Positions 1 to 62,162 of a stretch of DNA of 64,000 nt are shown here, one piece after another. Source of the DNA: Telopea speciosissima (taxonomy: Eukaryota > Streptophyta > Magnoliopsida > Proteales > Proteaceae); NCBI RefSeq assembly GCF_018873765.1, contig NC_057925.1, positions 58,540,970 to 58,604,969 on the forward strand, read 5' to 3'. Each line of letters begins with the position of its first letter. Position 1 is the stretch's first letter. The notes under the pieces are model-generated. The model had not been told where the DNA came from and did no database searches. It worked only from the letters and a program-made list of their open reading frames with translations. Position numbers and translations under genes: made by a program.

Positions 1-3000
1 ATGCTTTTGAACTTCCACAACTTCATCATTTACAATCGCATCATCATCAATCTCTTTAAAAGTTTGTTCTTCTAACACTACTGGTTTAGAGTGGGGTAAT
101 GTTTCATCAATCTTCACATCTGAACTCTCTACAACTTTCCCCAACCTCTTATTGAAGCATTTGTAAGCCTTGCTCTATGAGGAATACCCTAAGAAAATCC
201 CTTCATCTGCTCTATCGTCAAATTTTTCAAGGTTGTCTTCCTTTCTTTTGATGAAGCAGCGACTACCAAACACCCTAAAGTGTTTCACTGTGGCTCTTCT
301 ATTAAACCATAATTCATATGGAGTCTTAGATTCTTGTGGTCTCAACAAGCACCTGTTGCCAATGTAGACAGCTGTATAGATGGCTTCTCTCCAAAAATGT
401 TTTGCAATATTATTATCTGTAAGCATTGTCCTAGCCATTCGTTGAACTGTCCTATTCTTCCTCTCAACTACCCCATTTTGTTGAGGGGTTCTTGCTGTCG
501 AATGCTGAATTCATATGCCATGTTCATTACAAAATTCTGTGAAAGCACTCCATGTGAACTCCTTTCCTTGGTCAGATTTGATGCACTTGATTGTTTTGCC
601 AGTCTCATTCTCAACCCTTTTCTTGAACACCTTGAGGGAGTGTAAGGCTTCAGTTTTGTCCTTGAGAAAAAAGACCCATGTCATCCTTGAGTACTCATCA
701 ATAAGTAACATAAAATATCTCTCTCCTCTAATTGCTTGAGTCCTCATTGGTCCACGCAAATCTGTATGAATTAAGTCTAAAGGCTTACTAGCATTATGTT
801 CCTTTAACTTGTATATAGCCCTTGTTTGCTTACCCTTCTGGCATGGTCCACAAACATGATTCGTGAGGTTCTTGATTTTTGGAAGATCCTTAACACCATT
901 GTTCTTGCTCAACTTGGCTAAGTTCTTGAAATTTATATGCCCAAGTCTTTTGTGCCAAAGTGTGATTTCATTCTCCTGACTAATCATGCAATTGTCATCA
1001 TTGTTCTCTGTAAGAACATACAAATTCTCATCTGTCCTGGAACCATGAGCCACTTTCTTTCCATTTTTCGTCTTCCTTATCTCAAAACCTTCCTTCATAA
1101 ATAAGATCTCATTTCCTTGGTCACATATCTGACTCACACTCAGAAAGTTATGTTTCAACCAGCTCACATACAACACCCTGCCAGATTTTATTCTTCCTTG
1201 ATCTAAGTTGACTGTTCCCTTGCCTTCAATCTTGGCCCCATCATTGTTCTCAAATCTAACTGAGCCACTTTCAACTTTATCAAGATTTAAAAATCTATCT
1301 CTTTCACCTGTCATATGAGTAGAACACCTACTGTCAAGAATCCATGGAGATGATCTTCTTTGAGCCTTAAAAGCCGTCTGAACAATCAATGATTTGTTGC
1401 TTTCTCCTGTCTTCTTCTCAATCTAAACTGCTTTTTCAGATACAGTGATGGATTTTTTGGCTTCCTTCTTTGTGAACACCTTCTTGTTCTTTGTGTGATA
1501 TTTCTTCTCCTTCTTCATAGACTACCTTTGAGAGGGAAGCAAGGTCTTGGAGTTTCTTGCAATGTGACCAAGCTTATAGCATCTAAAACATTCTACATTC
1601 TGATCAACCAGTGGTGCAAACTTGTTTTTTATTTTGACAATTGCAGGCTTGGCATTCCTTCTACATTCTGTTACTCTGTGTCCATACATGTTGCAGCCAT
1701 AACAATCCCCATTGAACCTTTGAGTCTGCCAAATATTCTTCATGTAGTCTTTGGATCTCTGATAGTATATTGTAGTAAACCCATCCTCATCAATCTTCTT
1801 GTTAGCAAAATTCATAGGTCTTGAACCTCTTCTCTTCTCACTAACAAATCTGATCGGATTATGTGCAGTGCCATTCCCTTTTATCTTTACTCCCTTTGAA
1901 GAACTCTCATTCTCATAACCAAGACCAGATTTATCATTGATAGGTCTTTGTCTACTAAGAAGATCATCTAACATGCTAGCTCCATTTGATGCTTGATCAT
2001 GTTCTTCTTCAGTTTCTTGAACAGAAACCTCATTGCCCTTGTCATTCACAGTTGTAACTATTGGAGATGTATTTGCAACTGTAAGGTAGTCCTTATTTTT
2101 TAAATTTTCAAGTTCTACCTTTAGTTTTATTATTTATTCTTCAAGCTTGGCACATTCATCAACTTTCAAAGATAAGTTGATGCTAATATCTTCAGTCATC
2201 TTTTGTGTTTCTTCAATGGTGAGCTTTAGGTAACTGATTTTTTCTCCTTCTTCTACAAGCTCCAACATCTTGCTTCTTTTTCTTTCTATCTTGAGCTCAT
2301 TTAAGGTAGTATAAAAAATAGTTTCCAGATCTTCAGCTTCTAATTCTTCATCCTTATCAGGTTTTTCTTCCTCTTCTTGATGGTCATTGCTTGCTAAGAC
2401 CATGAACATTAGTTCATCATCAGAGTCTTCAACTTCTGTTAATTCTTCTGAAGAGGTGTCATCTTTTTTTGTCATCAAACTCTTTTTCTTCAAGGTGTCA
2501 TTCTTCTTTAAAATGAACTTTTTCTTTTTAAAGCTGTTCTTGGAGGCTTGACTGTCTTCATCATCTGACTCAACTGTTTTACCCTTCTTTGGACATTTAG
2601 AGGCAAAATGTCTTATACCTCCACAATTAAAGCACTTCAAGGAAAGTTTTTCCTTGTATTTACCTTTACCATTCTTGAACTTCGTGGCAAGGTAGGCAAT
2701 AAGCTCATCATTGGAATCTTCATTATCATTTTCTTGCTTAATTTTTAACTTCTTCATGGCTTTAAATGCAACCTCCTTCTCTGTGGATTTAGGATTCACC
2801 ATACTCATTTCATATGCAGTCAATATACCATGCAATTCATCTAAACTCAACTCATTCAAGTTCTTTGACTCTTCTATAGCAGGCACCTTTGGGTTATAGA
2901 GATCCAGCAATGACCTGAGAATCTTCTTTACTACCACTGCATCCTTGATTTTCCACCAAGACTTTTGATGGCGTTTATAATTTTATTCACTTTACTTATG

Positions 3001-3457
3001 AAGCTCTCCACTGTATCTTCATCAGACATCTTCAAATTATCAAACAGTGACCTATAGTGTTGTAGTTTTGCCTCTTTGATCTTCTCATCGCCTTCATGGA
3101 CATTCTGTAACTTGTCCCACACTTCTTTAGCAGTTTCACATCCAACAACTCTGGCAAACTTAGTGTTGACCAATGCACTCAGAAGTGCATTCTTAGCCTT
3201 AGAGTCGTTTTCATACTTCTTGAGTTCAACTGTATCAGTTATATCACATGTGGGAATTTTGTATTCATTCTTCACAGACATCCAAACACCATAGCCCAAT
3301 GATTTCAGATATGTCTCCATCCTGATGCGCCAAAAATCATAACCTGTTCCATCAAACTGTGGTACCTTGCTGTGACTGTAACTACTGTTGCTATCCATCC
3401 TTCTTTCTCTTAGCACACTGTCCCAAGCTGTTAAGCTTCAATTCACTAGGTAACTTA

Positions 3458-5122: not shown

Positions 5123-5507
5123 AAGAGGAAAAGATTACTTTTCCCCCAAGTACTGTCTAAATCACATCTCTATGTAAGTTTATTTAGAATTTAATATATT
5201 CTTTTAATTGCCCCTTGCCTTATTCTCAAAAGTTCTATAAATTTTAGGGTTTTAAAAAATAATTTGAAACTGATTTATCATTATTTCATTATCAAAAGTT
5301 AACTTTAGTTTTCGCATACATATGTGAAACAACAATATTTATCATCGTTGGGGAAATCATGTGTTATACTTAAAGTACATAAAAGTATAGTTACAAATTA
5401 TTTGATAAGAAAATCGTTTACATACTATTAGAGTAAGGAACTAACGATATTGATCGGTTCAGTTGTGGTTCGGTTCAAAAGTGTGAAGAGTAGAAATCAA
5501 AATCAAA

Positions 5508-5735
5508 CCATTATAGACTCTGAACTGGCATCACTCAGTTGCCACCAGTAGCCTATTTAGTGCTTCGATCCACATTTCGTCAAGTAATGTTTGAGTATCG
5601 CGTGTATTCCTCTGTAAAGCTTGACACATGCTATAACTTAAATGGATACGATACGGAAACAATACCAAATGTAGTGTTGCATTTTGGCGGAGTAGCTAAC
5701 TTGTGTATTGATCAGTTTGGGATTATAATTGTAGG
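5508..5735 (+). pseudogene. Aspartic protease C-terminal fragment, older relic (unit A)
   Basis: About 228 bp that aligns with the middle of exon 2 of the intact genes, from the second catalytic motif region (IDSGTVITRLPP) through RSTFRQ, LDTCYNLNGYD and VLHFGG to DQFGIII. The second catalytic motif is disturbed by a small deletion (GACTCTGAACTGG against GACTCTGGAACTG), so the frame shifts there. There are no flanking exons. The same fragment occurs in unit B, so it is older than the duplication. Confidence 0.75.
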
Positions 5736-5739
5736 AGAC

Positions 5740-6130
5740 AAAACTCAGATTTTTATCTTCTCCATTTCTATCATCCTTCATTTCTATCCATTTCCCTCTT
5801 AGATTGTCGATAAATGGCATGCTTAAATCCTACGGTCATATTATGGATACGGTTACCAATTTGAATTCAATTTCAAATTCAAAGTCTGCTGATGGGAGAG
5901 CAGGCTGACTAGGTCCATGCATATCTGAGAGGTTGTTACACTAAACTCTATCTTATCTATCTCTCGTATTTTTTCTCTTGTAAACATGTATAACAAGTAG
6001 TTTAGGAGTTCTTATACTCTATCTTTTGTATTTAAATTTCAATTATCAGTTGTATAGCTCACATACTAATATAAATAGAACAACCCAAGATCACAATGAT
6101 TCACATTTTCATCTGATTAGATTTGAGTTA
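5740..6130 (+). repeat. Probable LTR relic (unit A)
   Basis: AT-rich, TATA- and poly-T-bearing sequence shared with unit B. In unit B the equivalent block is followed by a TGGTATCAGA primer-binding-like motif and an ATG leader, which is the layout of a copia LTR. Taken as a broken fossil older than the tandem duplication. The family is not resolved further. Confidence 0.4.
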
Positions 6131-6624
6131 TGACATTCACCCATCCAACCCTAACCTAACCCGAGGTACCCATTCTCTCTCCACTCTCACTCCTCCATCT
6201 CTCTTTGCTCTGATGTGAGCTAGGCTTATTGTTTGAATGGTAAAAAATTATGATAGAGAGTTTAGTCTTCCACCCATGGACCACGGGCAATGATGTTGAC
6301 CGTTGACGTGGCAAAATAAAACCTAACAGAAAAATTGCAATGGAAACACTTGACATTGTAACTTTGAAGTTTCTCATCCAAAAAAAAAAAACACTTTGAA
6401 GTTTTCTTTTGTGGGGCACAAGAAAGCAATAATTAAGCAAATTAGAAAATGACCGGATTTCACTTTCTTGAGGAAATGGCTACCCTACTTCCTCCGTGCT
6501 TGACCCGCGCGAACAAGACCAAAGTTTTGTAGAGAAAAAGTGTGGTTTTTGTTAGAAAGAGGGTTATTGCTTTGAAACTGCCATTAAAAGTACAAAGAAT
6601 TAAGATGGAGAATATGATTCCTTC

Positions 6625-6632
6625 TATATAAA
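6625..6632 (+). promoter_or_regulatory. TATA-like box of protease copy A
   Basis: TATATAAA about 240 bp before the start codon of copy A. The same position in unit B (about 12988) reads TATACAAA, a weaker match. That this is the real TATA box is inferred from spacing and conservation only. Confidence 0.4.
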
Positions 6633-7270
6633 CCTTGAGAGTCAGGTTGCCAGTAGCCATAGTGTTGAGAGAAAGCAAAATAATCGGTTAGATCAAGTAG
6701 AATCCATTAATAGTACTTCCAATTTCTAATTTGATCCAAAAAGCTGTCTTGGAAAAAAGGCTTTTTTTATTTGAGGCGCAAACAATTGTACGACCAAAGC
6801 CCCCAGCCAGAACTAGGCGCGAAAACAGCCAAGCAGAGAGAAAGAGGCTCCAGGGTACCCACCATCATCCATGGCCATTAGCAATGGCTTCCTTTCCCTT
6901 CTTTCAGTTGTTCTTCGTTTGCTTGTCGTTGGTTGTTCAGATCAGAAGGTCGAGGCCTATGGATTTGAAGAAATGATGGGAAATCTTCGAACCCAAAGTC
7001 ATCATGTCGTTTCACTCAGCTCCTTGATGCCAGCCGGAGTTTGTTCTACCCCAGCCCAAGGTGATCATTTCTCTTAACTCTCTCTATATATTTCTTATTC
7101 CATCTTTACAAATAAACAAGTTAATTAAAAGGAATTTTTTCCTTCACCCATAGTCAGATGGTGTGCATAGGATATTGATGGTATTTTCCACTTTGTACTA
7201 TAGGGAAAATATCATTTGTGACCTAGGTGTGGGTGTTCTTTTTCCTCACTCAAGTGTTGCAAAACTTTCT

Positions 7271-7407
7271 CCTAATGGCTCCATTTGTTTCGGCTCAAAA
7301 TTTTACATGTTAGGAAAGTTGTCCAATATTTGTTTTCACTAAACAATAAATACTGAAAAACTTTTCAACATGTAAAAGTTTATCCCGAAACAAACAGAGC
7401 TTTAAGG
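7271..7407. mobile_element. MITE with GCTC..TTTGTTTCGG termini (unit A intron)
   Basis: 137 bp with imperfect terminal inverted repeats: the left end CCTAATGGCTCCATTTGTTT pairs with a right end that reads CCTTAAAGCTCTGTTTGTTT on the other strand. It sits in the long protease intron of both units, so it inserted before the duplication. Non-coding; superfamily not certain, hAT-like by its ends. Confidence 0.55.
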
Positions 7408-7649
7408 AAAAATGATGTGCACACTACTTATAGTTCACGCTTTTCACAATCTTTAACAGACTCTCTCCTCCTTGACTATGGGGCTCCATACACACATAAT
7501 GAGGTATTTCCTCATGTGTGTGTGTGTACATTGGCTTACTTTTTCTGAGTTTTGGGCTTTAAATAGAAAGGTGGATGGTGGCTTCTTAGCTTGCCCTTGG
7601 CTTATTATTTCATCTTCTATCATGTGAGACAGAAGTGGTCCACTTAGAA

Positions 7650-7886
7650 GGGGAAAAAAAATCCTCTCCAATTCCTTGAAAGTGTAGTGTGGTGCAGTTA
7701 CGAGCTGAGAGCTCAAAACCTGGTAGGCGCGACATCTAACAGTGCCGAGCTCGAGAAGAAATAATAAAAAAAAAAACCTGACTCAATCAACCTTGGACTG
7801 TTGGATGTCATGTCTACCAGGTGTCGACCTTTCAACCCCGAACTGCACCGCACTCGGCGATCAAGGAATTGGAGAGGATTTTAATT
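7650..7886. mobile_element. Mutator-like MITE with 9-bp target duplication (unit A)
   Basis: 237 bp flanked by CACTTAGAA on both sides (7641-7649 and 7887-7895). The ends are inverted repeats of about 40 bp built on ATCCTCTCCAATTCCTTGA, and the interior is a second, looser inverted repeat around the CTACCAGG and ACCTGGTAG blocks. The 9-bp duplication and long TIRs point to a non-autonomous Mutator-like element. It is present at the same place in unit B. Confidence 0.7.
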
Positions 7887-8130
7887 CACTTAGAAAGAGT
7901 CAGTCATGATTAATTCCAATTTCGGCTGATTTGATATGGTTGATTTATGGTCCAAAACCATAGAATGGTTGAGTTTTTAGATCTGAAGGCCAATTCTAGG
8001 GTTTCTTGGGACTGATTGTGATGGATTTTTATATGATCCAGATCAAAATTGGCAGGGACAGACCCAATTGCGGATCCAGCTTCTCTCCAGGGAGCCCAAT
8101 GCCCATGGAGTGCCCAGGGGACATCCAAGG

Positions 8131-8307
8131 GTTGGGCTGTGCCACACACATCTTGGCGCACACCTAGGGATGTGTGCGGCACAACCCAATGGCTGGATGG
8201 ATCAGGATCGTCTCTAGGGAGCAGGGAACGCCCAGGGTGTAACTAGCCATTGGGCTGTGCCGCACACATCCCTAGGCATGCACTGAGATGTGTGCGGCAC
8301 AGCTCAA
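8131..8307. repeat. Two GC-rich palindromes in protease intron (unit A)
   Basis: Two successive hairpins, 8131-8189 and 8250-8307. Each has arms of about 20 bp of the type TTGGGCTGTGCCGCACACAT paired with its complement. They stand out from the AT-rich surroundings by GC content, and the two hairpins also resemble each other. Shared with unit B (14235-14293 and 14353-14411). Origin unknown. Confidence 0.6.
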
Positions 8308-11300
8308 CCGCTGGATGCCCCCTAACAGTTCCTTGGGCGCACGCCTCCTTGGAGACAAGCTAAATTTTGGCTGGATGCCCCCTGGGCGCGCTGGGCTCCC
8401 TGGAGAGGAGCTCAATCCCCCAATGGTATTCCATATTTTGAAACCTTACCAATATGATCTAAGCGTACGTAGCCCAACAAATACCAGTTAGTTAATCAAG
8501 TGTCTTGTATCAAGAAAATTATTGTTACTTATGATAGTGTCATTATTATGGCATAGGCTTGCCTTCTGATTGGCAATTGTCTACCACATGGCAGTTTTGA
8601 TATTGCCAAAATTTTGTAGATTTGTTTTCCAAGTCCTAAATATGGTAAGTTCAGAAATGGTCTATTCTCTAACAAATATAAATTTGAAAATCGGTTCAAA
8701 ATTTAACTTATATTATTTACTTTTGAAATTATGGGGATACAAGTATTGAAAGGGGAGGGTTCGTTGCATGCAATTTTGCACTAATAAAGAAGAGGGTTAC
8801 AGATCATTCAGTAGGAGGTATTTAATGAGGAGAGAGGATGTAGGGTCTATGGGTGAAATGCGATAGGGACTACCGAAGAATCTGCACGTACACTCGCGTC
8901 ATGCTGTCATGTCATTTCTTTTTAAATATTGAAATGTTAGATCATACGATTAAGATATGAATTACATGACATATGTCTAGTCTAATATGGAGGCTCCCAT
9001 CAATAATTATCAAGTAAACCCTCCACATGGCAATGTGAGGATGTTAACAAAACCCGAAATATGAAATTGTTTGGATGATCAATATGATCAATCCAAGACT
9101 TATATTTATAATAAGTGAAAAAATACAATGAGACAATAATAACCTTGCCATAGCCGACACAGTTAGGCAGTGTATAATAACAAAATAAAACACCCAAAAA
9201 GACCAAAATACTTCCACGGTATTCTGGTGTACCTTATTCAACAGAGGATAATGGCCATCAAATAAACTTTTGACCCTTGTATACATAGGGAAAAACATAT
9301 TAGTTAGAAAAGAGGGGAAAAGATGGGCATGACTGTGGTATACATGCTCACTCCTACGTTCTGCCTTCTACCTTTTTAGGTGTGTATGATTGATTCTTTT
9401 TCTATAGAAAATTTACTTTTAACATTAACTAGGTGTCTCTCTCTCTCTCTCTTACATAAACAAGGCTATGTTCAATGCTTTTCAGGCTCCGAAATCTTAA
9501 GCAGACAGGTACTGCAAGTAACTCACAAACATGGGCCTTGCTCACCACTGAAGGAAGGAAATGCAAAAATTCCTAGTCTTGGCCAGATTCTCATGGACGA
9601 CCGAACCCGAATCAAGTCCATCCATTCAAAAATCTCCAACCAACAACACTACCCAGTAGAAGAGTCTGGAGCAAAAATGCCGGCCGACTCTGGCCAATCC
9701 CTAGGGAGTGGAAACTTTGTTGTTCGAATTGGACTTGGAACACCCATGCAAAACTTTACAGTAATCTTTGATACTGGTAGTGATTTCACTTGGATCCAAT
9801 GCCAACCATGAGCCGGCCAATGTTATTCGCAACAAGATCCCATCTTCAACCCTTCTGCATCCTCCACCTATTCCAATGTCTCATGTAACTCCACTACGTG
9901 TGCCCAACTGCGATCAGCCACTAGCTACGCACTATCCTGCACCACCAATCCCAATTGCATCTACCAGGTCATGTATGGTGACAACTCGTTCTCTCAAGGG
10001 TACTTTGCAACAGATACTCTAACAGTACTACCTTCCTCTGATGTCTTCCCCAAATTTAAATTTGGTTGTGGTCAGAACAACGACGGCCTATTTGGTTTTG
10101 TAGATGGAGTACTAGCTCTTAGCCGCGATCAGATCTCTATGGTATCACAGACTGTTCAAATTTTTGGAAAGCTTTTCTCCTATTGTCTTCCACCCACAAG
10201 CAGCTCCACTGGTTTTCTTGCATTCGGTAGCCAAGTGGGTAACTCTTCCACTGCTCAATACACTCCACTACTAACAGATCCCAACAACCCATCGTTCTAT
10301 TTCTTATATATGACGGGTATAAGTGTTGGAGGAGAGAGTTTATTTATCCCACAATCAGTTTTTACAACTTCAGGAACCATTATAGACTCTGGAACTGTCA
10401 TCACTCGATTGCCACCATCAGCCTATTCAGCTCTTCGCTCAGCAGTTCGTCAAGCAATGTCTGAGTATCCCGTGTATTCGTCACAGTATGGATATGATAT
10501 ACTCGACACATGCTATAACTTAAATGGATACGACACAACAACATTACCAACTATAGTGTTGCATTTCGCCGGAGGTGCTAACTTGTCTATTGATCAGTCT
10601 GGGATTGTAATTCAAGCAAGTTCAACTCATTTCTGCTTGGCTTTTGCCGGAAACAGCAATGCTACCGATTTAGCTATCCTTGGAACTATGCAACAGAAGG
10701 GAATTGAGGTGATTTATAATGTGACAGGAGGACAGCTGGGATTTGGGACAAGCGCTTGCAGCGTAAAAGCAGTATCTGTCCCGGCCCCTCCAACCAATAT
10801 TTCTGCTCCCCCTCCCCCTCCAATGGGAACACAACCCCCCCTTTGTACTTCCATAAACATCATATTACCACCACCACGCATTGATTGATATTTGTGTGGT
10901 AGACATCTCATTTTGTTTCCTAGAAAACAAACATTCACAACCATGAATGAAAATTCCCTCCTCCCCCCCCCCCCCCCCCCCCCCCCGCCCCCAAGGTTAA
11001 TTAGGTTAAAATATGGTTAATTGATCTCAAAATCTATCCAAAATTTTCAACTAAATTAATTTTTTCTTTTTATTTTTTCATACTTAAATTTACTGTGAAA
11101 ATAAGTTTATTTCAACCTGTTAACTCAGAAAAGATTTCATTTTAATCATACAAGACCCGTTTTGAAAAGGACTTTAAATCCTCCCTGTTCATAGTATTTT
11201 CTTCTTTTTCCATTCCGTTTTGTCTTCAGTGTTTTAAGATTTTCTGCAAGAAATTCCTTTTGTAGCTCTCTTTTTGTTCCTATATTCAGCAAGAAAAGTT

Positions 11301-11807
11301 TAATATAAGAAACTAGAAAAAAATTTAAAAAAAAAAAAGGGAATATAACCATGAAAATGGTGCTTGGCACCAAAGTGGATAGATATAACCATTGATAAAT
11401 CTCCACAGGTAGTGTAAGGTGACTAAGGTTTTGGTGAAGAGGAAAAGATTACTTTTCCCCCAAATACCTCTATGTAAGTTTATTTAGAATTTAATATATT
11501 CTTTTAATTGCTCCTTGTCTTATTTTCAAAAGTTCTATAAATTTTAGGGTTTTAAAAAATAATTTGAAACTGATTTATCATTATTTCATTAGCAGAAGTT
11601 AACTTTAGTTTTCGCATACATATGTGAAACAACAATATTTATCATCGTTGGGGGAATCATGTGTTATACTAAAAGTACATAAAAGTATAGTTACAAATTA
11701 TTTAATAAGAAAATCGTTTATATACTATTAGAGTAAGGAACTAACGATATTGATCGGTTCAGTTGTGGTTTGGTTCAAAAGTGTGAAGAGTAGAAATCAA
11801 AATCAAA

Positions 11808-12035
11808 CCATTATAGACTCTGAACTGGCATCACTCGGTTGCCACCAGTAGCCTATTTAGCGCTTCGATCCACATTTCGTCAAGTAATGTTTGAGTATCG
11901 CGTGTATTCCTCTGTAAAGCTTGACACATGCTATAACTTAAATGGATACGATACGGAAACAATACCAAATGTAGTGTTGCATTTTGGCGGAGTAGCTAAC
12001 TTGTGTATTGATTAGTTTGGGATTATAATTGTTGG
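11808..12035 (+). pseudogene. Aspartic protease C-terminal fragment, older relic (unit B)
   Basis: Counterpart of the fragment at 5508-5735 with the same small deletion in the second catalytic motif, so both descend from one relic copied with the unit. It has one further in-frame TAG near its end that unit A lacks. Confidence 0.75.
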
Positions 12036-12039
12036 AGAC

Positions 12040-12530
12040 AAAACTCAGATCTTTATCTTCTCCATTTCTGTCATCCTTCATTTCTATCAATTTCCCTCTT
12101 AGATTGTCGACAAATGGCATGCTTAAATCCTACGGTCATATATATTATGGATATGGTTACCAATTTGAATTCAATTTCAAATTCAAAATCTGCTAATGGG
12201 AGAGAAGGCTGACTAGGTCCATGCATATCTGAGAGGTTGTTACACTAAACTCTATCTTATCTATATATCTCTCCTATTCTTTCTCTTGTAAACATGTATA
12301 GCAAGTAGTTTAGGAGTTCTTAAACTCTATCTTTTGTATTTAAATTTCAAATATCAGTTTTATAGCTCACATACAATATAAATAGAACAACCCGAGATCA
12401 TAATGATTCACGGGTGATTACAGCCAATGTTTTCCTATTCTATCTTGGTATCAGAACCATTGACCACCGTCCTTATCTTCAACCATGGCTAATTGAGACT
12501 CCACATTTTTCTATTCTATCTGATCAGGTT
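12040..12530 (+). repeat. Probable copia LTR relic with primer-binding-like motif (unit B)
   Basis: LTR-like AT-rich block followed by TGGTATCAGAACC at 12446 and a short leader with ATG. Broken fossil, older than the tandem duplication. The left boundary is uncertain. Confidence 0.4.
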
Positions 12531-13363
12531 TGAGTTATGACATTCACCCATCCAACCCTAACCTAACCTGAGCTACCCATTCTCTCTTCTCGCTCACTCC
12601 TCCCTCTCTCTTTGCTCTGATGTGAGCTAGGCTTATTGATTGAATGGTAAAAATTAGGAAAGAGAGTTTATACTCTTCCACCCATGGGCCACGGGGAATG
12701 CAATGGAAACACTTACATTGTAACTTTGAAGTTTCTCATAAAAAAATTAATAAAAAGTTCAAAGTTTTCTTTTGTGGGGCATAAGAAAGCAATAATTAAG
12801 CAAATTAGAGAATGACCGGATTTCACTTTCTTGAGGAAATGACTACCCCACTTCCTCCGTGCTTGACCCGCGCGAACAAGACCAAAGTTTTGTAGAGAAA
12901 AAGTGTGGTTTTTGCTAGAGAGAGGGTTATTGCTTTGAAAATTCCATTAAAAGTACATAAAATTAAGATGGAGAATATGATTCCTTCTATACAAACCTTG
13001 AAAGTCAGGTTGCCAGTAGCCATAGTGTTGAGAGAAAGCAACATAATCGGTTAGATCGAGTAGAATCCATTAATACTACGTACCCAAAGTCATCATGTCG
13101 TTTCACTCAGCTCCTTGATGCCAGCCGGAGTTTGTTCTACCCCAGCCCAAGGTGATCATTTCTCTTAACTCCCTCTCTATATATTTCTTATTCCATCTCT
13201 ACAAACAAACAAGTTAATTAAAAGGAATTTTTTCCTTCACCCATAGTCAGATGGTGTGCATAGGATATTGATGGTATTTTCCACTTTGTACTATAGGGAA
13301 AATATCATTTGTGACCCAGGTGTGGGTGTTCTTTTTTCTCACTCAAGTGTTGCAAAACTTTCT

Positions 13364-13499
13364 CCTAATGGCTCCATTTGTTTCGGCTCAAAATTTTACA
13401 TGTTGGAAAATTGTCCAATATTTGTTTTCACTGAACAATAAACACTGAAAAACTTTTCAATATGTAAAATTTTATCCCGAAACAAACAGAGCTTTAAGG
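13364..13499. mobile_element. MITE with GCTC..TTTGTTTCGG termini (unit B intron)
   Basis: Unit B copy of the MITE at 7271-7407, with the same ends and position; about 136 bp. Confidence 0.55.
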
Positions 13500-13744
13500 A
13501 AAAGGGATGTACACACTACTTATAGATCACGCTTTTTCACAATCTTTAACAGACTCTCTCCTGCTTGACTATGGGGCTCCATACACACATAATGAGGTAT
13601 TTCCTCGTGTGTGTGTGTGTGTACATTGGCTTACTTTTTCTGAGTTTTGGGCTTTTAGTAGAAAGGTGGATGGTGGCTTCTTAGCTTGCCCTTGGCTTAT
13701 TATTTCATCTTCTATCATGTGAGACAGAAGTGGTCCACTTAGAA

Positions 13745-13990
13745 GGGGGAAAAAAATCCTCTCCAATTCCTTGAAAGTGTAGTGTGGTGCTGAGAGCTCG
13801 TAACCTGGTAGGCGCGACATCTAACAGTGCCGAGCTCGAGAAGAAATAAAAAAAAAAAAAAAAGAACAAAAAAAAAAAAACCTGACTCAATCAACCTTGG
13901 ACTGTTGGATGTCATGTCTACCAGGTGTCGACCTTTCAACCCCGAACTGCACCGCACTCGGCGATCAAGGAATTGGAGAGGATTTTAATT
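13745..13990. mobile_element. Mutator-like MITE with 9-bp target duplication (unit B)
   Basis: Unit B copy of the element at 7650-7886. It is flanked by CACTTAGAA (13736-13744) and CACTAAGAA (13991-13999). About 246 bp, the extra length coming mainly from an expanded A run near 13848-13880. Confidence 0.7.
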
Positions 13991-14234
13991 CACTAAGAAA
14001 GAATCAGTCATGATTAATTCCAATTTCGGCTGATTTGATATGGTTGATTTATGGTCCAAAACCATAGAATGGTTGAGTTTTTAGATCTGAAGGCCAATTC
14101 TAGGGTTTCTTGGGACTGATTGTGATGGATTTTTATATGATCCAGATCAAAATTGGCAGGGACAGACCCAATTGCGGATCCGGCTTCTCTCCAGGGAGCC
14201 CAACGCCCATGGAGTGCCCAGGGGACATCCAAGG

Positions 14235-14411
14235 GTTGGGCTGTGCCACACACATCTTGGGGCACACCTAGGGATGTGTGCGGCACAACCCAATAGCTGG
14301 ATGGATCAGGATCGTCTCTAGGGAGCAGGGAATGCCCAGGGTGTTACTAGCCGTTGGGCTGTGCCGCACACATCCCTAGGCGTGCACTGAGATGTGTGCA
14401 GCACAGCTCAA
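14235..14411. repeat. Two GC-rich palindromes in protease intron (unit B)
   Basis: Counterparts of 8131-8307, hairpins at 14235-14293 and 14353-14411, with a few substitutions. Confidence 0.6.
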
Positions 14412-14418
14412 CCGCTAG

Positions 14419-14538
14419 ATGCCCCCTGACAGCTCCCTGGGCGCACGCCTCCTTGGAGACAAGCTAAATTTTGGTTGGATGCCCCCTGACAGCTCCCTGG
14501 GCGCACGCCTCCTTGGAGACAAGCTAAATTTTGGTTGG
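14419..14538 (+). repeat. 60-bp direct tandem duplication, unit B only
   Basis: The 60-bp block beginning ATGCCCCCTGACAGCTCCCT is present twice in a row (14419-14478 and 14479-14538), essentially identical. Unit A has a single copy, so this arose after the unit duplication. Confidence 0.8.
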
Positions 14539-15403
14539 ATGCCCCCTGGGTGCACTGGGCTCCCTGGAGAGGAGCTCAATCCCCCAATGGCATTCCATAT
14601 TTTGAAACCTTACCAATATGATCTAAGCGTACGTAGCCCGACAAATACCAGTTAGTTAATCAAGTGTCTTGTATCAAGAAAATTATTGTTACTTATGACT
14701 GTGTCATTATTATGGCATAGGCTTGCCTTCTGATTGGCAATTGTCTACCACATGGCAGTTTTGATATTGCCAAAATTTTGTAAATTTGTTTTCCAAGTCC
14801 TAAATATGGTAAGTTCAGAAATGGTCTATTCTCTAACAAATATAAATTTGAAAATCGGTTCAAAATTTAACTTCTACTATTTACTTTTGAAATTATGCGG
14901 ATACAAGTATTGAAATGCATGCAATTTTGCACTAATAAAGAAGAGAGTTACAGATCATTCAGTAGGAGGTATTTAATGAGGAGAAAGGGTGTAGGGTCTA
15001 TGGGTGAAATCCGAGAGGGACTACCCAAGAATCTGCATGTACACTCGCGTCATGCTGTCATGTCATTTCTTTTTAAGATGCATTAATTTTTCCTAATATT
15101 GAAATGATAGATCACACGATTAAGATATGAATTACATGACATATGTCTAGTCTAATATGGAGGCTCCCATCAATTATTATCAGGTAAACCCTCCACATGG
15201 CAATGTGAGGGTAATGGCCATCAAATAAACTTTTGACCTTTATATACATAGGGAAAAGCATATTAGTTAGAAAAGATGGGAAAAGATGGGCATGACTCTG
15301 GTATACATGCCCACTCCTACGATGTGCCTTCTACCTTTTTTAGGTGTGTATGATTGATTCATTTTTTATAGAAAGTTTACTTTTAACATTGACTACGTCT
15401 ATT

Positions 15404-15406
<3 letters not shown>

Positions 15407-15461
<55 letters not shown>
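15407..15461 (+). repeat. GTCT/CT microsatellite at protease intron end
   Basis: A run of GTCT repeats followed by about 20 CT repeats, 30 bp before the exon 2 acceptor of copy B. Unit A has only a short CT run here. It extends the polypyrimidine tract. Confidence 0.8.
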
Positions 15462-15464
<3 letters not shown>

Positions 15465-17106
15465 TAAACAGGCTATGTTCAATGCTTTTCAGGCTCCGAA
15501 ATCTTAAGCAGACAGGTACTACAAGTAACTCACAAACATGGGCCTTGCTCACCACTGAAGGAAGGGAATGCAAAAATTCCTAGTCTTGGCCAGATTCTCA
15601 AGGACGACCGAACCCGAATCAAGTCCATCCATTCAAAAATCTCCAACCAACAACACTACCCAGTAGCAGAGTCTGGAGCAAAAATTCCAGTCGACTCTGG
15701 CCAATCCCTAGGGAGTGGAAATTTTGTTGTCCGAATTGGACTTAGAACACCGATGCAAAACTTCACAGTAATCTTCGATACTGGTAGTGATTTCACTTGG
15801 ATCCAATGCCAACCATGCGCCGGCCAATGTTATTTGCAACAAGATCCCATCTTCAACCTTTCTGCATCCTCCACCTATTCCAACGTCTCATGTAACTCCA
15901 TTGCATGTGCCCAACTGCAATCAGCCACTGGCTTCGCAGTGTCCTGCACCACCAATCCCAATTGCATCTACCAGGTCACATATGGTGACGGATCGTACTC
16001 TCAAGGGTACTTTGCAACAGATACTCTAACAATACTACCTTCCTCTGATGTCTTCCCCAAATTTAAATTTGGTTGTGGTCAGAACAACGACGGCCCCCTA
16101 TTTGGTTTTGTAGATGGATTACTAGCTCTTGGCCACGATCAGACGTCTATGGTATCACAGACTGTTCAAATTTTTGGAAAGCTTTTCTCCTATTGTCTTC
16201 CACCCACAAGCAGCTCCACTGGTTTTCTTGCATTCGGTAGCCAAGTGGGTAACTCTTCCACTGCTCAATACACTCCACTACTAACAGATCCCAAGTACCC
16301 ATCGCTCTATTTCTTAAATATGACGGGTATAAGTGTTGGAGGAAAGAGTTTACCTATCCTACAATCAGTTTTTACAACTTCAGGAACCATTATAGACTCT
16401 GGAACTGTCATCACTCGGTTGCCACCAACGGCCTATTCAGCGCTTCGGTCATCATTTCGTCAAGCAATGTTCAAATATCCCATTACGTCACCGTATTTAT
16501 TACTCGACACATGCTATACCTTAGCTGGAAACGATACGGCAAAATTACCAACCATAGTGTTGCATTTCACCGGAGGTACTGACTTTTCTATTGATAAGTC
16601 TGGGATTCTAGTTCAAGCAAGCTTAACTCAATATTGCTTGGCTTTTGCTGGAAACAACAATGCTACCGATTTGGCGATCCTTGGAAGTATGCAACAGCAT
16701 GGAATTGAGATGATTTACAATGTGGCAGGAGGAAAGTTGGGATTTGGGACAAGCGCTTGCAGCGTAAAAGCCATATCTGTCCTGGCCCCTCCAACCAATA
16801 TTTCTGCTCCCCCTCCCCCTCCAATGGAAACACAACCCCCCCCCCCCTTTGTACTTCCATAAACATCATATTACCACCACGCATTGATTGATATTAGTGT
16901 AGACATCTCATTTTGTTTCCTGGAAAACATTCACAACCATGAATGAGATGTTTTTTTTTAAATTCACAACCATGAATGAGATGTTTTTTTTTAAACTTTA
17001 TGAAATTCCCCTCCCCTCCCCCCCCCCCCCAAGGTTAATTTGGTTAAAATATGGTTAATTGATCTCAAAATCTATCCAAAATTTTCAATCAAAATAATTT
17101 TTTATT

Positions 17107-20004: not shown

Positions 20005-20118
20005 TTCATCATTACGGTGATTAGAAGAAAAATGCGCACTGCGTCCATGCTTTTCCCTCTCTCTCTCTCTCTCTCTCTTCTCAAAGCCTAGAAACCCTAG
20101 CAGCTCATCTGCAGGGCC

Positions 20119-23100
20119 ATGGCCGAAACACCCCGCAAGTCAAAACAACCTTCTGGTATCAATCTAAAACCCTTGTCTCCTTCATCCATTTCGATCCCTT
20201 CGACGCCGGAAACCGTCGCTCCTCGTCGATCTTCGCGGCGGTCCTCTTTGGTTGTCACTCCCCAAACCCATCTGAAACCATCATCTGCTCTCGTTGAAAA
20301 ATTCAAAAACGATACTCCACAAACTCCCAATTCCGCTCCAAAGAACAAAGGATCGAGACAGAGAATCAATGAAGCTTCACCCGGAGCTTCGTTTTCTCCG
20401 ATTTCTCCCGACTGCTCGGAACCGAAGAGAAGGAAGAGATCTGATGAGGTGAAGACTGTTGTTACGAGATCGAGAGCTTCTAAAACTGTTACATTTGAGA
20501 CGGAGAAGAAGGTTAACGATTTACGACCAGCGAAGAGGCGTATTTATTACAAGAAGGTTTCTTATGATGGTGGAGAATTCAGTATTGGGGACGACGTTTA
20601 TGTAAAAAGGAGAGAGGATGCGAGCTCAGACGATGAAGATCCTGAGGTGGAAGAGTGTCGGATCTGCTTTAAATTCGGGAAGTCTTTGATGATTGAATGC
20701 GATGATTGTTTGGGCGGTTTTCATCTCAAATGTTTGAAGCCACCGTTGAAGAAGGTTCCAGAAGGGGATTGGATTTGTAGGTTATGCGAAGCTCAGAGAT
20801 TGGGGAAGAAGATTGAGCTTCCAACCCCTCCCAAGGGGAAGAAACGGCGTAGAACGTTGAGGGAGAAGCTGCTCTCAAGTGATCTTTGGGCCGCACGAAT
20901 TGAAAGGTAGATGCTTTGGTTGGAAGACGTTATAGAATTTATTCTGATTTTGTTGTACGTTAAATCTCATTTGTGGTACTGTTACCAGAATATGGAAAGA
21001 AGCAGATGGTAGCTATTGGTTTCATGGACGCTGGTACATAATTCCTGAAGAGACTGCTGCTGGAAGGCAGCCGCATAATCTAAGGAGAGAGCTATATGTC
21101 ACGAATGATTATGCTGACATTGAGGTGATTAATATGTTTCCCTCTACTGCTCTACTTCTCTCTTTCTCTCGACTCTTTCCACTTTTTCCTCTGTGAAAGG
21201 TTATATAAATGTGAATTTATGTTTCCTGTTGATACAAAAATTCAGGTTACATAGAGGCACAGATTTCTTCCCATCAGAATAAAAGTCTGTCAACTGTATC
21301 CATTGGAATGTATGTTACTCCTGAATTGGATCAAAGAAAACAGATTTGTTCCATGAATAGAAGTATTTATTTGGATATGCAGGGCTTCCTATGTATCTCT
21401 ACAGAACCTCATGATTTGATTTGCGAGTATTCTATTCTCAAAGATGCAAATGAAATCCAAGATGCTTGACATTTTGATGTAATATCACCTCAGAGAAATG
21501 TGAAAATAACTTAAGTGTCAGGATTTAAACTGGGCGCTGTACATGGTGACTACCTACCATTTCATGGTTGAAATGAAGGAGCTATTTATGGGTTGCGGAA
21601 ATCTAAAATAATTCCTAGCAAAGTAGTCAGCCATGTGCAATTTGGAATCTCCCATTTTAGAAAATGGCACTTGCTTCCAGGAGCAGCGAAGAAGTTAGAG
21701 GGATGGTGGGGAAATATTGAACGCAGTGAATGTGTGTGATATATGAAGAGTGAAAGTAGAGAAGCGACATTGTTGAACTCCTATGTCATTAGTCTTGATT
21801 TAAGGGTCATACAACCTTACGTAAGCATTTCTAATGCAAAATTGAACACCCTAAAGGTATGTACTTCACTTCTGATGTGCAATTGAAGGATGTAATATTG
21901 TACCTATTGTGGGGAAATAATAACAGGAGAATGTTATTGGCGCCGATGTTCCTACTTCTTAATGTTCCAGTGAACTTTACTGCCTAAGAAATGAGCATCT
22001 AATCCCAGGACTATCTTGCCTCAATTTTCACTTGGAATCAGGTTGATTGACTTCTTGGTGCAATGGTTAAGGTTGCTCCATTGTGACCAAGTGGTCACGG
22101 GTTCGAATCTGGAAACAGCCTCTCTGCGAAAGCATAGGGGTAAGGCTGCGTACATTATGACCCTCCCCAGACCCCGCAGTGGCGGGAGCCTTGTGCACTG
22201 GGTACGCCCCAATCAGGTTGATTGACTTCATTCTCCTGAACCATTGGTAGTTTGTGCATTTTCTTCATAATATCAGTAACTAAAATATAATAATAAAATG
22301 ACAATTAATTATGAAACTTTCTTTCTGATTCTTCTGTTGAGTGGGTTTTATAGAAAGAGAACTCTCAACAGAAAAGCGACATTTCCTACTCTTTGTTTAT
22401 TAATTTGGAAAAGACAAGCAAATCTTTTATTGTGTTCAAGTTGCTAAATGTCAATGATTTCTCAATTTGCAGATGGAGTCCATACTTCGGCATTTGTATG
22501 CTATGATTCCTAAGGAGTTTGCTAAAGCCAACTGTGAAGGAGATGATGTTTTTCTGTGTGAGTATGAATATGATGTTCAGTGGCACAGTTTCAAGCGCCT
22601 TGCAGAGATTGATAACAATGAAGAGGTAGGCCTTTCAGACCTATAAAGTATATTTGTATATGGAATATGAATTCAAGTTGTGATGGGTTTTCCTTGGAAA
22701 CTCGTTTTGAATTTGAAATTCAAATTATTCAATTTACTTCCTTACAGGATGGCAGAGAAGCTGGTAGTGATGAAGATTGGGATTTATGTAAGGATTCAGG
22801 TTCTGATTCAGAACTGGAATACGATGAGAAGAATGTGAAGGGTTCATTGCCTAGAAAATCCCCAGCTCATGAATTGGCTGCGGTATGTTCCCTTTTCCAA
22901 ATTTTAATTTTTGTAGCATTCAACTATAGCTTTCTTGGAGTTTAATGCTTACAATTATATATGCCAGAATTCACGGAAAGGGCGGATATTTGGCCTCCAA
23001 AGGATAGGGGCGAAGAAAATACCCGAGCATGTGAGATGTCACAAGCCAACTGAACTTGAGAGAGCAAAAGCAGCCCTTCTATTGTCAAGTTTACCCAAGT

Positions 23101-36503: not shown

Positions 36504-39500
36504 CTAAGAAGACAAATTTTGAATTTTTATTAAGAGAGTGCAAACTAACTTATCAACGTCAGGTGTAGCCAAAGGGTCATAGAGCTCCTCCCTCTGCTCC
36601 ACAGCAGGGGCAGCACCTGCCATAGCTGCCACTTCTTGAACACCATCAGCCTGAAAACATGCAAAAAAGAAATTGGAATTTCTCGCTTAGGCGTTCTATG
36701 ACCACATGTCAGGGTAAAATTAGTAGACAATGAATATTTTACAGATACCAAAGTAACAGTTCTTGCCTGTTGTGGGTACTGTCCATATCCAGCATATGCA
36801 CCATAGGCATATAAAGATGGATCTTGAGCGGCACCATAAGCATAGGCATCATAACCTTGTCCGTACCCATAATAAGCGCTGCTCCATTGACTGGGGTCCA
36901 TTTGCTGACCCCAGACACCAGGTTGGTCCTGTAATATGGTTGGAAAAATCATCTCAACTCTAATGCCAAAAGAATTATGAATTATTTTTCAAGCAATTAC
37001 AATGACAACCACTACAAACACACACCCTAGAAGAGATTGCTTTTAACCAAGACCTGCCCATTATGGTGAAAATGACAGACCATGAATACACTTTCATGGG
37101 TGAATTCCACATATTTTCACATCTAGAATTTTCATAAATTTACATATACAACATATATTACTGTCAAGACTGAATTTCTTATTATATAGATATTTAGATT
37201 CAAAGAAAGTAAGGATTATAATAAGTTGCTCATAAAGCAAAGAATGGTCAATTTCTTTCTCAACTCACCCCAAATTTGTGAGTTGTGACAGTGCAAATGA
37301 TGAAACCAATCTCAGAAATTGTGAGAATGACTTGTGTCAATGTGACACACAGCCCACTTTATTTATAATATGAAGAAGAAAGTTTTAGAAAAGAGTACAA
37401 GACCAAAATACCCCTATAAGACAAATATACCCTTGTACCCATATTACAACACTCTCCCTCAAGTTGGTGCATAGATGTCAATCATGCCCAACTTGCTAAC
37501 AATAAAACTAAACAACTTAGTACTCAAACCCTTGGTAAGAACATCAGCAAGTTGATCATCCAAAGGAACAAAGGTAATGCATATTTGACCACTGTCCAAC
37601 TTCTCCTTGATGAAATGACGATCTATCTCCACATGTTTTGTTCGATCATGATGAACAGGATTATGAGCAACGCTAATTGCAGATTTACTATCAGAGTACA
37701 ATCGCATTGGCATCTCAACCTGAATTCCAAGATCTTGCAACAATCCTTGGAGCCAGAGAACTTCACATATACCTTGGGCCATTGCCCTAAACTCAGCCTC
37801 AGCACTGGAATGAGCCATAACTGTCTGTTTCTTACTTCTCCATGTGACAAGATTACCTTCTATATAAGTACAGTAGCCAAAAGTAGAACGTCTATCATCT
37901 GGTGAACCAGCCCAATCAGCATCAGTATAAGTTTCAACCTTCATGTGACCATAAGGAGAAACCGAAATCCCATTCCTAGGTGCAGCCTTCAAATACCTTA
38001 GAATTCTATATACTGCATCCAAATGGGTAGAGTAAGGATCATGCATGTATTGGCTTACCAGACTTACAGCAAAGGCAATATCTAGGCGAGTGTGGGACAG
38101 GTAAATAAGTCTCCCAACTAATCTCTGGTACTGCTCCCTATTCACTGGTTCTTCTTCCTAGGACCGGAGATGACAGTTTGGTTCAACTGGAGTTTCAATT
38201 GGCTTACATCCAAGCATACCTGTCCTTTTATCTCAAATTCAGTGCCCAAGAATTTCTTCAATGACTCAATCTCCTCTTGACTACTCCTTGTGATAACTAT
38301 GTCATCCACGTACACAATTAACATAGTCACATATGTGGTAGTCCTCTTAATGAACAATGTGTGATCTGCATTGCTTTGCTTGAACTCAATGGAGATCATT
38401 GCTTTGTGAAATCTTCCAAACCATGCCCTAGGAGATTGCTTGATATCATATAAAGCTCGATTGAGCTTGCACACCTTACCCTGAGTCTTCTGGGAATCAA
38501 AACCGGGGGGAATGTCCATGTAGACTTCTTCAGCTAATTCACCATGCAGAAATGCATTTTTCACATCAAGCATAAATAAATTTCATCCCTGATTTACAGC
38601 ATATGACAGGAGCACTCTCACAGTATTCATCTTGGCCACTGGAGCAAACGTCTCCTAATAGTCAATCCCACATGTCTGGGTAAAGCCTCTAGCAACAAGC
38701 CTGTCTTTATATCTCTCAATGCTCCCATCAACTTTATTTTTCACTGCAAATACCCATTTGCACCCTACAGCTTTCTTTCTAGATGGTAGTTGAACCAAAT
38801 CCCACGTATTATTTTTGCCTAGGGCTCTCATCTCTTCCTCCATTGCTTCTTTCCAGTCCGAGTGTGCCAGTGCTTCCTGCCAAGAGTTAGGAATGGAAAC
38901 AGAGGACAAAGAAGCAAGAAAAGTCTGGAAAGTAGGAGACAAAGAATCATATGAGATAACATTAGAGATGAGATGATGAGTACAACTACGTTTACCTTTC
39001 CTAACAGCAATAGGAAGGTCCAGAGTAGGATTACTAAAAGGGATGGATAGTTGCTTACTAGAGGAAACAGGGTCGATAGGACCTGGAATCGTTTCAGTCA
39101 ATTGAGTAGGAGAGATGTTAGTAGGCCTGAGCTGCTCTTGCTTTCTTTTCCTAGCATATACTTGAATTTGCTCTTCTCCCTTATTTTCCTGAACTGGCTG
39201 AACTGTGGTTTCTACAGGAGTAGGAGTATTCTCCCCCTGAATAGGAACCACAGGAGTCTCCTCCTGAATAGGGACCACACTTCGGCTTTGCTCTTGTTCC
39301 TGACTAGTAACACCATCCTCAAGTACTTCCTCTTCTTCCCATGGCAGCCCTATAGGAGGAATACACTGAAGGACCTCATCACTTTGAACAGACTCCCCTT
39401 GAAGAGGGACAGAGTAGAAAGGAACATATTTCTGAAATACGACATCCATGGAAACAAAGGTTTTCTAGGAAGATGAATGATAATATCTATAACCCTTTTG

Positions 39501-42500
39501 AGTAGCAGAATATCCCAGAGTAATACACCGGAGACCCCGGGGATCTAATTTCCCATGGACTTGATGATTGCGAACAAAAGCAACACACCCAAAGATTTTA
39601 GGAGGAACAGGAAAAGTAACAGTTCCAAGAAGAGTTTCTAAGGGGCTTATGCTACCCAAAACACGAGAGGGTATCCGATTAATAAGAAAAGCTATTGTAG
39701 CAACAACATCCCCCCAAAAACGAACAAGCACATTCATGGAAAAAAGTAATGACCTAGTTACCTCAAGAAGATGATGGTTTTTCCTCTCCACAACCCCATT
39801 TTGAGGTGGAGTATCAACACAGGAGGTTTGATGAATAATCCCATGGGCAAAAAGATAAGACTGAAAGGTCCCCATAGAGTACTCAGTGCCATTATCAGAG
39901 CGAAGAATTCTGATTTTGGCATCAAACTGAGTACGAACCATATTATGAAAATTTTGAAAAACATGAAACACGTCACTTTTCTGTTGCAGTAAATAAACCC
40001 ATGTAGTTCTAATATAACAATCGATAAAGGTCACAAACCAACGATAACCAGAAGAAGAAACCACACGGGTAGGGCCCCACACATTAGAATGAATTAAACT
40101 ATAAGGAACCAAACTACGTTTTTCAGAAATAGGATAGGTATGTTTAGTTTGTTTTGCAAGAATGCAAGCATCACATTAAAGTGTTCAAATTACAAGACTT
40201 AGAAAATTCAGGAAATAAAGTAGCAAGAGGTCTTAAAGGAGGATGTCCTAATCGACGATGCCAAGTGTGCAAATCAGCAAGTGCTTTAAAAGAAGAGCCT
40301 GGGAGAGAAGCCACAGTAGATAATGCCGTAGGAGGCTGCTCCAACAGGTACATGCCACCTTCCATCTTACCACATGCAGTCATACTGCCCGTCTCCAAGT
40401 CCTGAAACACACAATGAGAAGGGGAAAAATGACCTTACAATTCAGCTCACGAGTAATACTACTAATAGATAACAAATTAGGAGAAAATTTTGGAACATGA
40501 AGAACAGAAGACAAAGACAGAGAAGGAGAATATTTAATAAGGCCTTTCCCCGAAATGGGAGAAAAGGAACCATTAGCGACCCTGACTTTATTATTTCCAG
40601 CCAAAGGAGAGTAATGGGAAAAATAGGAAGGGGAACCGGTCAAGGATCTGTAGCCCCAGAGTCAATAATCCAGGGAACCGGGGTAATAGAGGAGCTATGA
40701 CCACAAAACCAAATACCTGAAGGAGGTGCAGGACAAACAGAAGAAGAGGCAGTGGTGGCAGAGGCAACACTGGCATGGGCCGAAGGGACTGAAGTCCGAG
40801 CCTCAAGTCTAGACATCAAACAGCGAAGGTTGGTCAGCTCATCAGAAGAGAGAGGTGCATCCGAAGAATCTTCCTCTGTAACAGATTGATGGGCAGCAGT
40901 GCCTCCAGACCATGGCTGACCTCGCCCACGAGACTCTGGCGGGCGACAATGGAGCTTCCAAAACCAATCCTTCGTATGACGTTCCTTGCCACAATAGTCA
41001 CACTTGATCGGTGGTTTAGCAGATGTAGCAGGAGCATGAACAGAACTAGAGGCAGCAGCAGTAGAGACTCCCTTGGCAGTCCCAGAAGTAGGGGTAGTAT
41101 AAAGAGCAGCACGCTCCACAGGTGGTGGATGAACCATGGCTGCCCGCCGGCTCTCCTCAGAAGCCACTATAGCATAAGCCTGTTGCAGTGAAGGGAACAG
41201 ATCCCTATTAAGCACATGGGATCGAATCTGGTCATACTCCATATTGAGCCCGGCCAGAAAAATCATAGACCCTAAGGTTCTCTTCCCACTTGCGATAGGC
41301 CATAGTATCAGCCTGGCAGGTAGCCAAAAATTTTCCATAGAAATCCAAAGTTTGCCAAATACCCCGCATGGTATTGTAGTACTGACTGAGAGTCAAATCC
41401 TTCTGCTCCATAGTATGAATCTTCCGACGGAGGGCATAACATTGGGCAGCATTACCAACCTTAGAATAGGTTTCTTTGGCAAAACTCCACACAACAGCAG
41501 CATTCTCCAGAAGAATACAACTCTGGGAGATGGAGGGATCAATAGAACTGAGAAGAAAGGACATCACTAAACACTCATCGATGTCCCATTTGTCCTGAGC
41601 CTTACCAGCAGTAGAGGGTCGAACAAAGGTGCCAGTCAAATGGCCAGTCAAGCCACGGGAGCCCACAGCAAGAGAAACGGATCTAGACCACATAAGATAA
41701 TTGTTCCCGTCAAGTTTGACAGAATTAGTCTGGAAAGTTGGAAAGTCCCGCTCACGAGGCACAGAGGAGCCTCCCTGTCCAGAGGAAAGAGTGGAATCTT
41801 CTTCGTCCGACATAGCCGCTGGTTGTAGAAGCACAATCACCTAATCCAAAAAATGGATACACCACATAAAAGAAATCTCCCAAAAAAAATTTGAGGGAGA
41901 TTCAAAGCATAATGGAAGAAAAAAGCCCTTGCGGGATAAACTCACCACCAAGGGAAGGAGAAGGCGGAAATCAGAGGAGGCAACCCCTAAAAACCGAGAA
42001 AAGAGGGGTCGCGAGGTGTCGGAGGCGGTGTTGGGGAAGGCGGAAGGGACTAGTGGCGCTGGTGGTTGTGGTTCTCGCAAGAGAAAGAGACGAGAGAGAG
42101 AGAGAGAGACAGAGGCACGAGAGAGAGAGAGAGGCGGAGGGGTGGAGGCGGAAGTGGTGCTGCTGCTGCTGCGATCTGGTGACTGGCGGCGATTGTGTTC
42201 TCAAGCATAAGAACTCCAATCCCTAGGTCGATTTCTCTTGGCTTTGGATACCATGATGAAACCAATCTCGAGAATTGTGAGAATGACTTGTGTCAATGTG
42301 ACACACAGCCCACTTTATTTATAACATGAAGAAGAAAGTTCTAGAAAAGAGTACAAGACCAAAATACCCCTATAAGACAAATATACCCTTGTACCCATAT
42401 TACAACAGCAAACATTGCTTATCCTTTCAGGTATTCAGGACTTCGAAAAGCACTTCCCCTCATGTTTAACACCCAGACACCCCATAGCAAGAAGCTTTAC

Positions 42501-61670: not shown

Positions 61671-62162
61671 TTTGTGTGATGCTTATACTTCACTTATTTA
61701 TTGCCTGTCTACTGCTTCAACTCATGCAAACTGGAATCATGCATTCACTAATCTCCGTGTTGCATATGTCTATTCAGCTCATGCACTGCGTCTGGGTTTG
61801 TATATGGGGGGAAAAAAACCCTCGTGATAATTTAATGTAGAGAATGCATCAACAATTGCACCTTTTGGATCAACTGTTTTGTATCAATTACCAAAGAAAT
61901 AAAAATCTACTAATTTGTGTGATGCTTATACTTCACTTATTTATTGCTTGTCTACTGCTTCAACGCATGCAAACTGGAATCATGCATTCACTAATCTCCG
62001 TGTTGCATATGTCTGTTCGGCTCATGCACTGCCTCTGGGTTTGTATATGGGGGAAAAAAAAATACCCTCGTGATAATTTAATGTAGAGAATGCATCAACA
62101 ATTGCACCTTTTGGATCAACTGATTTGTATCAATTACCAAAGAAAAAAAAATCTACGAATTT
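61671..62162 (+). repeat. 243-bp tandem duplication in LPAT2 intron 2
   Basis: The block beginning TTTGTGTGATGCTTATACTT occurs at 61671-61913 and again at 61914-62157, with few differences (for example CTATTCAGC / CTGTTCGGC and CTGCGTC / CTGCCTC). Non-coding; recent. Confidence 0.85.

Follow-up and report, generated by a model that had tools for sequence, protein, structure and literature searches.

Why do two adjacent copies of one protease gene each keep what the other has lost? On C10 of Telopea speciosissima, a chromosome-scale contig (NCBI RefSeq assembly GCF_018873765.1, contig NC_057925.1), a stretch of 64,000 nucleotides (C10:58540970-58604969; here called the window and numbered from its first base) holds two such aspartic protease genes, copy A and copy B, in tandem. 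Here, we report that they are most likely a pair of separately disabled genes, with catalytic exons that probably stayed open for long, a 3' patch probably exchanged with another copy, and a loss that open paralogues on C8 would make tolerable.

Results

Self-comparison of the window (self-BLAST and alignment) found two head-to-tail units, at 5123-11068 and 11437-17106, each consisting of a spacer, a promoter and one aspartic protease gene with exon 1, an intron of about 2.3 to 2.4 kb and a long exon 2. Copy A spans 6871-10888 in unit 1 and copy B spans 13076-16862 in unit 2; these and all features of the two units named below are on the forward strand.

Copy A starts with the ATG at 6871, and its exon 1 (6871-7060, identified by an exon-1 search and splicing) encodes the signal peptide and the start of the prosegment. 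The donor G|GT at 7060/7061 and the acceptor before 9486 bound a GT..AG intron (7061-9485), with GT and AG at matching sites in 15 relatives. Exon 2 (9486-10888; Pfam and alignment) encodes prosegment and protease domain but is interrupted by a premature TGA at 9809-9811, which leaves a product of 171 amino acids (aa). The column of this codon is cysteine in copy B and in 14 other aligned copies; of the 18 relatives fetched, four (L022, L024, L025, and L026) were too broken for inclusion in the alignment. Upstream, a TATA-like box, TATATAAA, lies at 6625-6632. Beyond the remnant in copy B, the exon-1 search matched 19 places (E values up to 10; 0.14 and 1.84 for the two weakest).

Copy B is broken at its start. 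Relative to copy A it lacks 272 bp (A 6713-6984), which cover the last part of the leader together with start codon and signal peptide, and the alignment places the deletion junction at 13075/13076. The remnant of exon 1 (13076-13151; exon-1 search and alignment) is followed by an intron (13152-15492; splice sites) and by an exon 2 (15493-16862; open reading frame [ORF], Pfam and alignment) that is open and contains both catalytic motifs, DTGSD and IIDSGT. The TATA-like site is present at 12988-12995 but, aligned with that of copy A, is changed to TATACAAA. The first ATG downstream of it opens a 7-codon upstream ORF (13095-13118) whose stop overlaps the next ATG (13118-13120); the latter is in frame and gives a spliced ORF of 467 aa with no hydrophobic leader. 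Copy B could thus yield at most a leaderless protein, and the open frame of its long exon could lead annotators to take it for an intact gene. A preliminary description of this DNA had claimed these same complementary defects, namely an exon 1 with signal peptide followed by a single early TGA in copy A, and an open exon 2 with both motifs but a deleted start codon and signal peptide in copy B; frame and alignment bear out the former and the 272-bp gap the latter.

The pattern of insertions and deletions (indels) between the copies bears on when they broke. In 3698 bp of noncoding A/B alignment, 19 indels have a length that is not a multiple of three, whereas the 1272 bp of exon 2 before the point at which the family normally ends (the range of the test, with the tail excluded) have 0 frameshifting indels against 6.5 expected (Poisson P = 0.0015; Fisher P = 0.006); the three indels in that range are of 3, 3, and 6 bp. 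Stops alone say little because one was seen versus about 1.6 expected under neutrality over both copies, but frameshifts and stops together give about 8.1 expected disabling events in the two exons versus the 1 seen. From 0 versus 6.5 frameshifts it follows that both catalytic exons were probably open during much of the period after the duplication and broke separately later. The lesions differ and neither is found in the twin; together with the conserved frame, this supports the two independent losses after duplication that the preliminary description had offered as one of its explanations.

The ratio of nonsynonymous to synonymous substitution rates (omega) was higher on the A and B branches than on the rest of the tree, at 0.71 versus 0.44 for the whole exon (likelihood ratio test statistic, 4.3; p about 0.04) and 0.84 versus 0.42 for the 5' part of exon 2 (p = 0.050); relaxed constraint and part-time selection each fit these values. 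Several points weigh against long-open exons followed by separate losses of function. The A/B omega does not differ from 1 (p = 0.23 for the whole exon; p = 0.60 for the 5' part), the two-branch test is marginal, with some model runs unconverged or returning not-a-number values, and, taken by themselves, the substitutions would be equally compatible with neutral drift ever since the duplication. The frame test stops before the tail, where one indel not divisible by three sits, and a converted patch (see below) could have wiped lesions across about 376 bp. Finally, the ATG remaining in copy B opens a full-length, leaderless protease.

Toward its 3' end, exon 2 contains a patch in which the copies diverge far more than elsewhere (A, 10380-10765, from alignment and synonymous divergence [dS]; B, 16390-16768, from the same and a search of the own genome). 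Here 49 of 376 sites differ between A and B, compared with 45 of 896 in the remainder of exon 2 (P = 1.9e-6), and dS is 0.26 compared with 0.06, about fourfold (P = 5.8e-5). Synonymous divergence in the patch also exceeds noncoding divergence (P = 4e-10). Positive selection as the sole cause was considered and rejected, since synonymous divergence is raised as well. Selection on the protein alone is therefore insufficient, exchange with another copy explains the pattern, and gene conversion is probably the origin of the patch.

Both spacers contain a 225-bp fragment of another protease copy: S1 (5506-5730, unit 1) covers the second catalytic motif region and is 80% identical to exon 2 of copy A, and S2 (11806-12030, unit 2), its duplicate by self-comparison, contains a TAG. 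A tree built from about 225 bp of the patch joins copy A with S1 and S2 against copy B (95% ultrafast bootstrap support) and separates the C10 sequences from those of C8 and C7 (100%). The 32 sites at which A and B differ in that stretch are split, with 7 joining A with the fragments in opposition to the relatives, 2 joining B with them, and 23 undecided. We make no call on which copy was overwritten or on the direction of the exchange. Searches of the own genome (822,943,500 bases in 1287 contigs; for DNA searches, the best candidates alone were scored) found no donor of copy B's patch above 85% identity, the value of copy A itself, the best C8 copy reaching 84%. Dispersed repeats at 5154-5405 and 5839-6077 flank S1, the first of a kind widespread in the genome, and S1 may have been carried in by a mobile element.

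Conversion is also probable for two other members of the family, L013 and L020 on C8; they are near-identical and are sisters in the tree of the 3' region (100%) but group with different copies in that of the 5' part. Separately, L010 and L014, also on C8, have a TAA at the same exon 2 codon (28/27), although L014 is close to the open L016; this shared stop could have arisen by conversion or recurrently.

A protein search of the own genome gave at least 94 matches (92 of 178 candidates scored), and among the matches listed the closest outside C10 belong mostly to a C8 group at 45.9-46.5 Mb. We compared 16 relatives on C8 and C7, 14 from that group together with L011 (C8, 52.7 Mb) and L018 (C7); two copies on C2 (L023, open; L026, broken) and short isolated fragments stand outside this count. 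The relatives show 64 to 73% protein identity and have the same arrangement of two exons as A and B; in the 15 copies inspected, GT and AG occur at the corresponding positions. Unlike the A/B pair, 10 of the 16 have an open exon 2, which is not proof of function; it is broken in the other 6 (L010, L014, L021, L022, L024, and L025).

Broken copies are thus common in the family, so two adjacent ones need no special cause. The complementarity that the preliminary description had treated as a meaningful sign need not carry any meaning, as 6 of 16 relatives likewise have a broken exon 2, and the complementary lesions of A and B are probably due to chance; such lesions in a tandem pair need mean no more than redundancy. 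Loss of the pair may have been tolerated because open paralogues persist on C8. Elsewhere, an exon-1 match at C8:46272988-46273146 lacks an exon-2 partner within some 30 kb among the matches listed and is possibly an orphan first exon, and isolated protease fragments with stops lie at C5:45795603-45796001 and C4:49347158-49347523.

A and B also differ from their relatives in the C terminus. The 14 other aligned copies stop right behind the last cysteine motif, and the 13 aligned relatives from C8 and C7 among the copies that end there are tail-free, unlike A and B, in which the triplet matching the relatives' stop lies in another frame, so that translation would read through into a proline-rich extension (A, 10766-10888; B, 16769-16862; alignment). 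Between the two tails there is a length difference of 5 bp within a C run, as well as a 3-bp indel. The out-of-frame stop is most simply older than the duplication because it is common to A and B.

Domains and motifs place both copies among the plant aspartic proteases. Pfam TAXi_N and TAXi_C scored above cutoff in copy B (168 and 100 bits; cutoffs, 30 and 23.9), and pieces of copy A passed too. Both copies contain VIFDTGSD and IIDSGT, with the two catalytic aspartate motifs (DTG and DSG), the second lying behind the TGA in copy A. Their active site, IF-DTG-S-D, is of the hydrophobic-hydrophobic-DTG-Ser-acidic type, which a section of PMC7909840 gives as the definition of atypical plant aspartic proteases. 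Past the prosegment cysteine, copy B has all 12 invariant cysteine columns of the 12 proteins compared; copy A lacks one, at the TGA. By hydropathy alone, a hydrophobic leader is present in exon 1 of copy A and absent from copy B, and neither copy has a complete reading frame, A ending after 171 codons and B being without the family start codon. Copy B therefore belongs to family A1 by descent but is not a complete gene for a secreted protease.

In domains, motif, 12 domain cysteines and intron, the predicted products of A and B fit the atypical nepenthesin-type (A1B) proteases. Placement in the AED1 group (Arabidopsis III-B) is probable, drawn from intron and architecture rather than from a tree including Arabidopsis sequences. 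According to part of PMC9937552, introns occur in few group III genes, the majority of them in III-B. With that group (AED1 and ASPG1/AED2), A and B share TAXi_N and TAXi_C, the active site, the 12 domain cysteines and the intron, and their relatives share the signal-peptide exon and prosegment; unlike it, A is cut to 171 aa, B is leaderless, and both have the proline-rich tail. Relatives of this protease family include immune regulators, and AED1 is apoplastic and described in a section of PMC7909840 as a repressor of systemic acquired resistance. A sequence search of the PDB returned distant pepsin-type matches alone (best E value, 3.4e-9) and none at 1e-20. A predicted structure of copy B had a mean predicted local distance difference test score of 37.5 and was not used.

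Discussion

We propose that a 5.9-kb unit with one gene for a secreted atypical aspartic protease and an older fragment was duplicated head to tail on C10. The catalytic exon would have been kept open in both copies for much of the time that followed, during which one of them would have acquired its 3' patch from a further copy of the local group, one not found in the assembly. A nonsense codon soon after the first catalytic motif would then have reduced copy A to a stub of at most 171 residues with a signal peptide, and copy B would have lost its start codon and signal peptide by deletion, with its TATA-like box altered too. Judged from the sequence, the locus is likely null as a secreted protease; neither copy would make an active secreted enzyme, a loss that the open C8 paralogues would make tolerable.

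Such a history is most likely ordinary birth and death, in which surplus copies decay while many other members of a large gene family stay open. The pair offers a worked example of it, with duplication, an open frame, what was probably an exchange with a sister copy, and finally two losses that occurred separately. A section of PMC8875628 reports tandem duplications among potato aspartic proteases, with unexpressed members suspected to be pseudogenes. The present family resembles potato's in its tandem duplication and suspected pseudogenes within an expanded family and differs in that the pair here is isolated and has two broken members whose lesions are visibly different.

The preliminary description had also raised an allelic or assembly mixture. 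Across spacer, promoter and intron the copies differ at 140 of 3698 aligned noncoding sites, or 3.8% (3.2% in the spacer, 6.7% in the promoter and 3.3% in the intron), and by 22 indels, whereas a section of PMC13080361 gives the heterozygosity of T. speciosissima as 0.76%. The copies stand head to tail, the window contains no N, and beyond the twin copy the own-genome DNA searches, which scored the best candidates alone, found no near-identical match of any length to either lesion region save pieces of less than 50 bp. Among these candidates and outside the twin, the junction region of copy B matched C8 copies only (79 to 88% over 64 to 81 bp), and the region of the TGA in copy A matched C8 and C7 copies (72 to 80% over 265 to 297 bp) and four pieces of 43 to 95 bp on C5, C9, C4, and C7 (80 to 95%). 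With a divergence of 3.8% exceeding 0.76%, no N and no further near-identical copy found among the scored candidates, a mixture is unlikely. A single-base change between near-identical copies can, as a matter of general knowledge, defeat polishing; even so, an artefact of either kind, whether two haplotypes of one gene assembled next to each other or a wrong base in the TGA, seems quite improbable to us. A death of the pair before duplication, with the two lesions as the visible part of an old neutral decay, would suit the out-of-frame ancestral stop common to A and B and an ancestral-branch omega of 0.63 to 0.65, for which omega = 1 is weakly disfavoured (p = 0.07). That stop change merely adds a tail behind the protease domain, and an already dead pair would have to have passed through the time after duplication with 0 frameshifts in exon 2 where 6.5 were expected, which makes the idea unlikely.

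Other alternatives grant one copy a present role. Copy B might still be used, its remaining promoter driving a leaderless protease from the ATG at 13118 that is active or regulatory in another compartment; atypical plant aspartic proteases are found in several compartments (according to a section of PMC7909840), and the in-frame ATG, the 467-aa spliced ORF, the canonical splice sites and an exon 2 without frameshift would all serve such a product. We nevertheless consider it improbable, given that the first ATG past the altered TATA-like site gives only 7 codons, that the in-frame ATG has a T at -3 and a C at +4, that the omega of copy B (0.86 to 0.87) is not different from 1, and that the 12 domain cysteines suggest disulfides of the secretory path. 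For copy A, the open start, signal-peptide region and prosegment leave room for a 171-residue stub acting as decoy or inhibitor of related proteases, but no independent sign of this role was seen and the frame is conserved past the TGA, so that the region was probably translated until recently; such a role is barely credible. A combination of the two, in which copy B was neofunctionalised as a leaderless protease outside the secretory path and copy A, now dispensable, was reduced to a secreted prosegment stub, is very unlikely. Two genes disabled separately, after a long period with open catalytic exons, remain the history that we prefer.

Other features of the window

Intron 1 of copy A contains self-complementary stretches (70 to 75%) at 8078-8361, 7266-7412, and 7658-7882, the first two of which occur in copy B too; they have the form of folded-back repeats resembling miniature inverted-repeat transposable elements. 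Retroelement pieces lie on the reverse strand at 511-3437 and 37297-42407, with integrase domains at 511-1422 and 39465-40175; the latter element has 155-bp direct repeats at its ends, 96.8% alike. From the look of their frames, we take both to be of the Copia type. A PHD-finger exon on the forward strand (20101-20910) resembles plant ORC1. At 61671-62163, about 250 bp are duplicated in tandem, the two repeats being 95% alike.

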